Positions 6,164 to 36,610 of a DNA stretch of 64,000 nucleotides are shown here, piece by piece. Source of the DNA: Burkholderia puraquae. Lineage in GTDB: Bacteria; Pseudomonadota; Gammaproteobacteria; Burkholderiales; Burkholderiaceae. A program made the position numbers and the translations under genes. Every line of letters starts with the position of its first letter. The first letter of the stretch is position 1. A model generated the notes under the pieces. That model was not told the DNA's origin. It did no database searches and saw only the letters and a list, made by a program, of their open reading frames with translations. The stretch lies in NCBI RefSeq assembly GCF_002099195.1, contig NZ_NBYX01000007.1, forward strand, positions 1 through 64,000, written 5' to 3'.

Positions 6164-6622
6164 CCGACGAAGCACGCAGGGCGACCGCTGTACGGCGAGT
6201 GAATCAGCAGGGTCTGAAGCGAACGCAAGCCGTCGAGCCGCCGCGTATCGTCGCCAACCGATTTCGACATGCGAAAAGTCAGGCCGGAAAGTTTGACCGC
6301 AGATGTCGGAGAAGTGCGCAAAAGATGTGATCAGGACGACTTCACGCCGCATGATTCGCGCGAAAGCAATGACATTCTTACCGATCATGACGCATTGAAT
6401 CTGGCAATGCAGGGCACATGTGCAGATAGATTTATTCGATGATCGGCGAATGCGCGACATCGCTCTTCTATACTGACAGGGACTGCTTTTTGCGGGAGGA
6501 CAGCCAGTCCGCATGAACGCATCGATCGTGCCGTATCGTCGTGCGGCTTGCGGCCGGATCTCGCTGCTACCCGCTGCGGCCCTGGCCGATACGCGCGCCG
6601 GGCCGCTTCACAAGGAGCCACG
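6164..6622. other. Gene-free stretch before the two-component operon
   Basis: 459 bp without a convincing coding frame and lower in G+C than its surroundings, especially 6290-6480. It probably holds the promoter of the response-regulator/kinase operon. A sigma-70-like -10 (TATACT, 6469-6474) lacks a clear -35. A weak GG-N10-GC element (GGACTGCTTTTTGC, 6480-6493) has a good -12 but a poor -24. No RNA gene recognised. Confidence 0.4.
6480..6493 (+). promoter_or_regulatory. Weak sigma-54-like element upstream of the NtrC-type regulator
   Basis: GG-ACTGCTTTTT-GC has correct 10-bp spacing and a T-rich TTTGC -12 element, but ACTG in place of CACG at -24. It lies 130 nt before the start at 6623. 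It is listed because the neighbouring cluster is rich in better matches. Confidence 0.2.
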
Positions 6623-7990
6623 ATGCCCTACGTGCTGATCGTCGAAGACGACGCCGATACGCGAGCGATGCTCGCGGCGCTCGCGCGCACGCAGCAGCTC
6701 TCATGCGATACGGCCGCGACGCTCGAAGAAGCGCGCACGCTCGTTTCGACGCATACCCCCGATCTCGTGCTGTGCGATCTCGTGCTGCCGGATGGCAACG
6801 GGATGGATCTGTTCGACGCGTTGCCGAAGCGTTCGCACTGCGAAATGGTGCTGACCACCGGCCACGCGAGCCTCGAAACCGCGATCGACGCATTGCGGCG
6901 CGGCGCAACCGACTACCTGGTGAAGCCGCTGAACATGCAGCGGCTGAACAGCATCTTCGCGCGCGTGCCGCGCACCACGGCACTGCATGAGGAAATCGCC
7001 GAGCTGCGTTCGGAATTGCAGCGCCTCGGCCGCTTCGGCCGCATGCTCGGCAGTTCGCCCGCGATGCAGGCCGCCTACGACGCGATCGGCCGGGTCGCGC
7101 GCACCGAGGCGTCGGTGCTGTTGACGGGCGAATCGGGCACCGGCAAGGAGCTCGCCGCGCAGACGGTGCACGACCTGAGCCTGCGTCGGCGCGGCCCGTT
7201 CCTCGCGGTGAACTGCGGCGCGATCGCCGCGAACTTGGTCGAGAGCGAGATGTTCGGCCACGACCGCGGCAGCTTCACGGGTGCGGAGCGCCAGCACAAG
7301 GGCTTCTTCGAACGCGCGGACGGCGGCACCCTGTTTCTCGACGAGATCACCGAGATGCCGCTCGAATCGCAGGTCAAGCTGCTGCGCGTGCTCGAGACGG
7401 GGCGCATCACGCGGCTCGGCTCGACGCGGGAGATCGACGTCGACGTGCGCATCGTCGCGGCAACCAACCGCGATCCGGAAGCCGCGATGGCGGACGGCAA
7501 GCTGCGGCCCGACCTGTTCCACCGGATCAACGTGTTCCCGATTCCGCTGCCGTCGCTGCGCGAGCGCGGCGACGATATCCCGATGCTGGCCGATGCGTTC
7601 CTGCAGCAGTTCAACGCGGAAAGCGGCCGGAACCTGCGCTTCGCGCCGGCCGCGCGCGAAGCGCTGAAGACCTATGCGTGGCCCGGCAACGTGCGCGAGC
7701 TGCGCAACTTCGTGCAGCGCGCGAGCATCTTCAGCGATGCGGACGTGATCGATACGCTGCCGCCGCCGATCATGGACGAGCTGTCGAACCTGGCCGATTC
7801 GCACGAGGATCGCGTGACCGTGCCGTTCGGCACGCCGCTCGAGGAAGTCGACCGGCGGCTGATCCTCGGCACGCTCGCGCAATGCGGCGGCGTGAAGGCG
7901 CAGGCGGCCGAGGTGCTCGACGTCAGCCTGAAGACGATCTACAACCGGCTCGCGCAGCTCGAAGACGAAGCGGACAAGCCGGAATCCTGA
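6623..7990 (+). CDS. NtrC-type sigma-54-dependent response regulator
   Basis: 455 residues. The N-terminal receiver has acidic pocket E8-D9-D10, phospho-acceptor D52 (VLCDLVLPDG) and K in VKPLNM. The central AAA+ domain has Walker A GESGTGKE (about 169-176), the sigma-54 contact loop as GSFTGA (about 216-221; usually GAFTGA), Walker B GGTLFLDEI and the arginine-finger region RPDLFHRINVFPI. A C-terminal Fis-type helix-turn-helix (GGVKAQAAEVLDVSLKTIYNRL) binds DNA. The ATG at 6623 has an AAGGAG site; a longer frame from 6548 is not family-like. The stop overlaps the start of the hybrid kinase (TGATG), so both are made together. It is the obvious candidate to activate the sigma-54 promoters found over the next 30 kb. 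Confidence 0.92.
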   Translation: MPYVLIVEDDADTRAMLAALARTQQLSCDTAATLEEARTLVSTHTPDLVLCDLVLPDGNGMDLFDALPKRSHCEMVLTTGHASLETAIDALRRGATDYLVKPLNMQRLNSIFARVPRTTALHEEIAELRSELQRLGRFGRMLGSSPAMQAAYDAIGRVARTEASVLLTGESGTGKELAAQTVHDLSLRRRGPFLAVNCGAIAANLVESEMFGHDRGSFTGAERQHKGFFERADGGTLFLDEITEMPLESQVKLLRVLETGRITRLGSTREIDVDVRIVAATNRDPEAAMADGKLRPDLFHRINVFPIPLPSLRERGDDIPMLADAFLQQFNAESGRNLRFAPAAREALKTYAWPGNVRELRNFVQRASIFSDADVIDTLPPPIMDELSNLADSHEDRVTVPFGTPLEEVDRRLILGTLAQCGGVKAQAAEVLDVSLKTIYNRLAQLEDEADKPES

Positions 7991-36286: not shown

Positions 36287-36367
36287 TCGTCGCGCCGACG
36301 GGGCGCGCGGCGATCAGGCGGCGCGCATTTTTTGCATCCTCATCGCAGATAGGCACTGGAGGCCAGC

Positions 36368-36610
36368 GTGCAAAATCAACAGGACGCACAGGTTCGCGAC
36401 CCGTATCGCGGGCACGAGATACGGGTGTGGGCACGCCGCAGCGACAGCGGCGCGTGGCGCGACGAGGTGCAGGTGTATGTCAGCGGCGAGCGCATCGAGC
36501 TGGCCGTGCCGGCAGCCGACGGCCCCGATTGGCTCACCGAGAACGAGGCGCTCCTCGCGGGCATCGAGCGCGGCCGCTATCTGATCGACAAGCGCATCGA
36601 CGACGATTGA
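36368..36610 (+). CDS. Small DUF6566-type protein (paralogue of 4674-4892)
   Basis: 80 residues starting at the GTG (MQNQQDAQVRDPYRG); GGAGG lies 6 nt upstream. The core HEIRVWARRSDSGAWRDEV and PDWLTENEALLAGIERGRYLIDKR corresponds segment by segment to the 4674 gene product. Soluble, no membrane helix. Function unknown. Followed by a convergent HAD hydrolase gene. Confidence 0.78.
   Translation: MQNQQDAQVRDPYRGHEIRVWARRSDSGAWRDEVQVYVSGERIELAVPAADGPDWLTENEALLAGIERGRYLIDKRIDDD

Follow-up and report, generated by a model that had tools for sequence, protein, structure and literature searches.

A predicted sigma-54 promoter cluster with stress-type genes beside a second rpoN in Burkholderia puraquae

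We analysed a stretch of 64,000 nucleotides from Burkholderia puraquae (contig NZ_NBYX01000007.1, positions 1 to 64,000 of the forward strand), here called the window, in which a second gene for sigma-54, rpoN2, lies together with an NtrC-type regulator, a hybrid histidine kinase and a dense set of -24/-12 promoter elements. The window makes up the opening 64 kb of a contig of 319,222 bases (C57 in our coordinates), in a genome of 8,098,134 bases and 82 contigs. A sequence-only reading of the same DNA had proposed a clustered sigma-54 regulon beside the second rpoN, a proposal that is supported by the position, orientation, conservation and genome-wide density of the elements. The window holds only part of an island whose layout recurs, in similar form, in other Burkholderia, in other genera of the family and in Achromobacter.

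A second rpoN with its own regulators and promoters

The sigma-54, the regulator and the kinase that the sequence-only reading had assigned to the cluster were all found with Pfam:

6548..7990, + strand: NtrC-type response regulator, with Pfam receiver, sigma-54 AAA+ domain with GSFTGA loop, and Fis-type helix-turn-helix (HTH)
7678..10335, + strand: PAS-rich hybrid histidine kinase (Pfam); this is the longest open reading frame (ORF), and the true start is probably near 7990
11872..13332, + strand: RpoN2, second sigma-54, with AID, core-binding and DNA-binding Pfam domains and the RpoN box ARRTVTKYRQ

With these three domains and the RpoN box, RpoN2 belongs to the sigma-54 family; it matches solved sigma-54 over its full length, its RpoN box and HTH are ordinary, and its closest named relative is RpoN2 of B. 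aenigmatica (95%). The regulator has the architecture of an enhancer-binding protein (receiver, AAA+ with a loop of the GAFTGA type, and HTH), and its orthologues at other Burkholderia rpoN2 loci are 79-97% identical. A midpoint-rooted tree built from 120 RpoN sequences places the RpoN2 group (73 sequences, support 0.98) apart from all 20 RpoN1 sequences of the family, and this clade spans Achromobacter to Burkholderia. Both a separate clade and linkage to targets, as expected of a dedicated paralogue, were found, with three exceptions in linkage (L070, L074 and L079, see below).

The promoter elements comprise nine exact matches to GGCAYG-N4-TTGC (the exact-site pattern, for which the reversed pattern served as control) and three close variants. 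Distances are counted between the -12 GC and the probable start codon, starts being chosen as ORFs with a ribosome-site-like stretch:

2485..2498, + strand: element GGCATGCGGATTGC, 191 nt before the Rieske/FAD reductase start at 2689; the weakest placed of the nine
10785..10798, - strand: element, 53 nt to the start at 10732; divergent from 10812(+), 13 bp apart
10812..10825, + strand: element, 81 nt to the ATG at 10906
11295..11308, + strand: element, 60 nt to the ATG at 11368
11804..11817, + strand: variant element GGCATGGAAACTGC of rpoN2 itself, 55 nt to the ATG at 11872
16120..16133, - strand: element for DUF3175, 54 nt to the start at 16066
16176..16189, + strand: element for the gene 16240-16614, 51 nt to the start at 16240
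16661..16674, + strand: element for DUF1488, 154 nt to the start at 16828
17300..17313, + strand: variant element GGCATGATGACTGC, 54 nt to the start at 17367 (gene 17367-17594)
35648..35661, - strand: element of the glgE cluster, 44 nt to the glgE start at 35604
36244..36257, - strand: element, 154 nt to the start at 36090; divergent from the variant at 36273(+)
36273..36286, + strand: variant element GGCACGGCGCGTGC, 82 nt to the DUF6566 start at 36368

A pattern search recovered all nine exact elements reported by the sequence-only reading, on the same strands, with no others in the window, and the three variants are likewise present. Among 100 dinucleotide shuffles of the window, which gave a mean of 0.62 and a maximum of 3 exact sites, none reached nine. 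The elements have GG and GC ten bases apart in a TGGCAYR-N4-TTGC-like setting, are intergenic and face starts, as sigma-54 promoters do. The earlier statement that nearly all point to a start codon holds; the range given with it (40-80 nt, twice 153 nt) fails for the element at 2485 (191 nt). In B. multivorans and B. pyrrocinia, whose islands are annotated, a PfpI gene separates the DUF1488 element from DUF1488.

Density of exact sites in the genome

A scan of the whole genome, as the sequence-only reading had suggested, gives 96 exact sites in 8,098,134 bases against 45 for the reversed pattern, an average of about 0.8 exact sites per 64 kb (control 0.4, in agreement with the roughly 0.4 chance hits first estimated from base composition). 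The 17 exact sites of the contig fall in two clusters only, nine at 2.5-36 kb, in the window, and eight at 141-158 kb; the pattern scan found none in the remaining ~269 kb of the contig.

Could the elements be chance or compositional matches in GC-rich DNA? Judging from the control, about half of the 96 sites may be, and 18 of the 30 sites inspected among the 79 outside the clusters lie within ORFs called by composition. The other 12 are intergenic; a scan of seven genes behind them gave likenesses to NarK, a sensor kinase, MetG, a PPOX flavoprotein, ExaC and EutR, with one gene unmatched. Density, placement and conservation nevertheless contradict this explanation, which we regard as refuted for the set as a whole and to which we leave hardly any probability. 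By position, orientation, conservation and genome-wide density, the elements as a set are predicted to be sigma-54 promoters; single sites, such as that at 2485, may be chance matches.

Conservation at rpoN2 loci of other bacteria

Counts at rpoN loci are given as matches to the pattern/matches to its reversed control, for the exact pattern and for a looser one (TGGCRYG-N4-YTGC), with orthologous rows not being independent events:

rpoN2, Burkholderia (27 loci, 564 kb): exact 129/3, looser 46/20
rpoN2, Achromobacter (18 loci, 347 kb): exact 96/1, looser 22/1
rpoN2, other named (six loci): exact 13/1, looser 9/2
rpoN2, other genera of the family (20 loci, 397 kb): exact 38/4, looser 20/8
other betaproteobacterial or gammaproteobacterial RpoN (28 loci, 482 kb): exact 8/2, looser 11/8
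rpoN1 (20 loci, 400 kb): exact 1/0, looser 2/8

The tree places the contrast group of 28 loci, which includes Nevskia and Accumulibacter, with RpoN1, except for L128 (Castellaniella), which groups with RpoN2 and contributes one of the eight exact sites. On these counts, clustering of sites goes with rpoN2 and not with rpoN generally. In one genome (G083), 17 of the 85 exact sites fall in 87 kb around rpoN2.

Placement was also examined in two annotated relatives, where the non-genic share of the DNA is 8.6% (B. multivorans) and 9.8% (B. pyrrocinia), and where all exact sites (9/9 and 6/6) lie outside listed genes. Every site of B. multivorans faces a start 38-121 nt off, and five of the six in B. 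pyrrocinia face starts at 45-132 nt, the last facing away from any near start. Matches to the looser pattern alone are intergenic in 6/10 cases in these two islands, and 19/20 loose controls are coding.

Conservation of the elements in related Burkholderia, another check proposed at the outset, is seen in alignments or by pattern before rpoN2, glgE and the CBS gene. The GG and GC of the rpoN2 element are kept in 27/27 aligned Burkholderia rows (L083, which starts at a contig end, was left out). A pattern match places the glgE element at -55 to -63 in 17 of 22 loci, counting that of the window; four others show a recognisable variant and one cannot be read. The element is present even before a GlgE of 48% identity. 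The CBS element is visible in 18 of 21 rows and absent in two, the remaining row (L071) being a different gene. In Achromobacter, an exact site precedes the beginning of the rpoN2 match by 40-90 nt at 16 of the 18 loci, and in A. xylosoxidans (L109) two activators, a GAF/PAS hybrid kinase, an SDR protein and DUF4142 stand beside rpoN2. The surroundings of rpoN2 in other genera hold varying subsets of PfpI, DUF4142, DUF1488, DUF2383, BON, an NtrC-type regulator, a second activator, an antiporter, DUF3175 and PRC.

Genes of the window and the divided island

The sequence-only reading had named trehalose/alpha-glucan metabolism and small stress-type proteins as outputs. The enzymes of the former were all found, with synteny to the annotated B. 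pyrrocinia island as the sole basis for the name treZ:

2689-4221, + strand: Rieske/FAD reductase
10532..10732, - strand: small gene, 66 aa, with homologues at the equivalent place in other islands
10906..11211, + strand: conserved small protein, with a paralogue in the second cluster near C57:148545
11368-11658, + strand: small lipoprotein-like gene behind the element at 11295
13409..13597, + strand: DUF3008 protein
13590..13805, + strand: DUF1328 protein
13802..14188, + strand: DUF3022 protein
14347..15669, - strand: cation:proton antiporter
15710..16066, - strand: DUF3175 protein
16828-17142, + strand: DUF1488
17581..35604, - strand: trehalose/alpha-glucan cluster of glgE, treS-mak, glgB, glgX, treZ, malQ and treY
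35749..36090, - strand: small gene behind the element at 36244(-)
36368-36610, + strand: DUF6566 gene

Genes for DUF5594 and MarC are also listed in this first cluster, between the Rieske/FAD reductase and the regulator. Homologues of the small genes at 10906 and 11368 were found solely via their copies in the second cluster. At the rpoN2 loci of other genera, OtsA (trehalose-6-phosphate synthase) occurs in 10/20 cases, and in five of these an exact site lies 56-72 nt upstream; with the glgE-type cluster in Burkholderia and OtsA in other genera, trehalose synthesis thus adjoins rpoN2 by two enzyme routes.

The second cluster lies ~105 kb from that of the window, on the same contig, and contains genes for PfpI, LigD, Ku, DUF421, a catalase piece, DUF1328, DUF3008, an rpoN relic, DUF892, CBS and PRC, and further a second DUF892, DUF4142, DUF2795, an SDR protein and a second hybrid kinase. 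The relic is the C-terminal part of a third rpoN (C57:146425-146580, equivalent to L038:2425-2580, minus strand) and fronts the second DUF3008-DUF1328 pair; it retains a sigma-54-like element and a TTGTAAA block upstream (C57:146692 and 146779). Another genome, G204, carries two RpoN2-like fragments at C199:11639-12077 (74-77% identity) as well as a complete RpoN2 at C110, which again points to duplication and decay of rpoN2.

In B. anthina (L072), B. territorii, B. seminalis, B. ambifaria, B. pseudomultivorans, B. dolosa and further Burkholderia the island forms a single row, by which we mean that, of the genes of both clusters lying within 10 kb of rpoN2, most follow one another in one series. 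The order in B. multivorans, taken from a PLSDB gene table with RefSeq proteins that is known to be incomplete, is regulator, kinase, BON, SDR, DUF2795, DUF4142, DUF892, Nramp, UdgX, response regulator, PRC, CBS, small genes, DUF892, RpoN2, DUF3008, DUF1328, DUF3022, Ku, LigD, antiporter, DUF3175, PfpI, DUF1488, treY, malQ, treZ and glgX. The B. pyrrocinia island is similar, without Ku and LigD in the row, and extends to glgE; genes for an encapsulin and a Dyp-type peroxidase (L212:2336-4211) lie near its FAD reductase end. Since relatives carry both clusters as one row, the window represents a large part of an RpoN2 island in a rearranged copy. A comparable separation is seen in G093, where ~425 kb of the same contig separate rpoN2 (C7:523010) from Ku (C7:98075). 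The contig of the window is probably the third replicon, because rpoN2 is found on chromosome 3 or a large plasmid in the named relatives with complete replicons.

The gene content also bears on a reading of the island as a response to nutrients (nitrogen or carbon), with glucan storage placed within ordinary sigma-54 nitrogen control. Sigma-54 commonly serves nitrogen control, and both an NtrC-type regulator and glycogen enzymes are present in the cluster. The other outputs of the island and of its counterparts in relatives, however, are non-homologous end joining, UdgX, DUF892, BON, PfpI and the antiporter, not nitrogen genes, and the kinase, a receiver-bearing PAS hybrid, differs from NtrB, so that we consider this explanation improbable.

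Co-occurrence of island genes with RpoN2

GlgE was found in 22 of 34 RpoN2-positive and in none of seven RpoN2-negative Burkholderia genomes (41 genomes, 22/12/0/7; hypergeometric probability 0.002, calculated by hand and uncorrected for relatedness and shared replicon). RpoN2 status was assigned by best E-value in this comparison, and one negative genome (G216) is only 82% complete. Ku is present in 6/8 RpoN2-positive versus 0/8 RpoN2-negative Burkholderia. A PfpI orthologue, and likewise UdgX above the cut-off, is found in 6/6 positives versus 0/8 negatives, a flattering figure as the positives were picked after the Ku and DUF3175 results and G201 and G203, which have neither, were omitted. 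Lower-scoring relatives of PfpI occur in 14/14 genomes and those of UdgX in 13/14. Among the six positives, an exact site precedes PfpI in four and UdgX in five.

DUF3175 is less restricted (6/8 RpoN2-positive versus 3/8 RpoN2-negative). All six RpoN2-positive relatives having the gene show an exact site upstream, and none was found within 420 nt in the two readable RpoN2-negative genomes; of the other loci, L222 is void, the gene starting at a contig end, and L237 could not be oriented. Whole genomes of three RpoN2-negative Burkholderia have 52, 64 and 62 exact sites versus 73-109 in 15 positives, which we do not use as evidence, since genome sizes and control counts differ and three negatives are few.

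Upstream blocks and divergent promoters

The alignment of 27 rpoN2 promoters revealed a conserved block upstream of the -24, a candidate upstream activator site:

11723..11737, + strand: conserved block CTTGTAAAAAAGCGG

Both rpoN2 (within 11707-11740) and glgE (about 35720) have a conserved TGYAAAAA block ~60-79 nt ahead of the -24, and the block is also present at 36244. Two kinds of candidate for a shared enhancer were rejected: dyads do not exceed random windows, and motifs from expectation maximisation (EM), which beat five shuffles per run, look like codon patterns of upstream coding sequence.

Divergent pairs of elements are found in this genome at 10785/10812, 16120/16176, 36244/36273 and C57:148930/148976, with 13-42 bp between them. 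Pairs within 150 bp account for 72 of 153 exact sites at 30 Burkholderia loci and for 37 of 96 in Achromobacter, mostly 7-42 bp apart, many being orthologous and hence representing few separate cases.

A possible RpoN2-dependent stress regulon

We propose, as a reasonably probable reading, that the kinase and the NtrC-type regulator switch a self-amplifying, RpoN2-dependent stress regulon. The PAS-rich hybrid kinase would phosphorylate the response regulator, which, at enhancers, would open RpoN2-holoenzyme at the -24/-12 promoters of the island. One of these promoters is predicted to drive rpoN2, which would thus stand under its own type of promoter, so that the response would amplify itself. 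The output would be a stress regulon that covers the metabolism of trehalose and of a glycogen-like glucan (glgE to treY), small DUF proteins and the cation:proton antiporter, joined in the detached part or in relatives by Ku/LigD end joining, UdgX, PfpI, DUF892, CBS and PRC-barrel proteins. It is presumably RpoN2, not RpoN1, that reads the island promoters and the window's own regulator that activates them, and the signal would be a stress (osmotic, drying, oxidative or DNA damage). In favour of the proposal stand the density, placement and conservation of the sites, the intact RpoN2 in its separate clade, the regulator and kinase at the same locus, the co-occurrence of island genes with RpoN2 within Burkholderia, and the convergence on trehalose through OtsA in other genera.

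Several observations weigh against this proposal. The looser pattern separates the loci less well than the exact one, and its contrast in Burkholderia is weaker (46 versus 20). Three loci are poor in exact sites within 10 kb of rpoN2 (L070 none, L074 and L079 one each). Ku occurs in G002 (C91, C144, C114) and G026 (C2), genomes of another genus of the family with one RpoN each and no RpoN2, so Ku as such needs no RpoN2; and as the island genes share a replicon with rpoN2, their co-occurrence may reflect joint loss. The TGYAAAAA block was seen at only three promoters and not before the others of this contig, and no shared enhancer among the promoters was found by over-represented words, TGYAAAAA positions, dyads or EM. 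The stress function itself is deduced from gene content.

Two further observations of this kind bear directly on the alternative that RpoN1 and RpoN2 are interchangeable, rpoN2 being a linked dosage copy and specificity coming from the activator alone. Our search found no sequence feature separating RpoN2 from RpoN1 promoters, and RpoN2-less genomes of other genera also have an excess of exact sites (e.g., 89 versus 27 in G002), so RpoN1 alone uses such sites. The ordinary RpoN box and HTH, compared with solved sigma-54, the ordinary promoter consensus, and the unlinking of rpoN2 from sites in some species, as in G093, fit this alternative too. It accounts less well for the separate RpoN2 clade kept from Achromobacter to Burkholderia, for the absence of GlgE, Ku, PfpI and UdgX from all RpoN2-negative Burkholderia inspected (seven or eight genomes), and for the DUF3175 genes that lack a site in the two readable RpoN2-negative genomes. 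We hold interchangeability to be unlikely, though with more than a marginal chance, and retain the RpoN2-dependent stress regulon as the preferred explanation.

A bolder version, to which we give an even chance, is that the island encodes a sigma-54 general stress response, self-amplifying and composed of RpoN2, a phosphorelay and an AAA+ activator, that fills in Burkholderiales the role of EcfG in Alphaproteobacteria. End joining, trehalose and a comparable range of small stress proteins would then stand under -24/-12 promoters, and the divergent sites could let one activator fire two operons. If true, a conserved sigma-54 island with similar outputs would amount to a tightly off, ATP-gated form of the general stress response, and would supply a regulator for end joining and trehalose synthesis in Burkholderia. 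The island is also a natural experiment on the purpose of a second rpoN.

Comparison with known systems

The sequence-only reading knew of no described locus in which sigma factor, activator and targets are packed together in this way, which is probably too strong. In Rhodobacter sphaeroides and Xanthomonas, a second rpoN lies inside flagellar clusters with activators and targets, so that the packing has precedents, and it is the stress-type output that stands as the unusual part. The R. sphaeroides rpoN2 cluster shares with the island a second rpoN beside activators and target promoters, and a division of labour between paralogues; it differs in its flagellar output and altered promoter preference, in contrast to the stress/trehalose-type output and ordinary consensus found here. 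The RpoN1/RpoN2 pair of Ralstonia is a further case of two rpoN genes in the same family.

The third replicon pC3 of the Burkholderia cepacia complex is reportedly tied to stress tolerance (Agnoli et al. 2014). The location of rpoN2 on chromosome 3 or a large plasmid in relatives fits with pC3, and the proposed regulon, if true, would offer a direct reason why this replicon affects stress tolerance.

General stress responses are usually run by factors of the sigma-70 family (RpoS, SigB, EcfG), and the island suggests one run by a type of switch not usually used for this purpose. NepR, the anti-sigma factor, was not found in this genome in a search with a positive Caulobacter control (PhyR and EcfG were not searched for). 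The alphaproteobacterial PhyR-NepR-EcfG system resembles the island in its two-component input and in its Ku/LigD, DUF892, DUF3008, DUF1328, PRC, CBS, catalase and trehalose genes; there an ECF sigma factor is controlled by a partner switch, whereas here sigma-54 is paired with an AAA+ activator.

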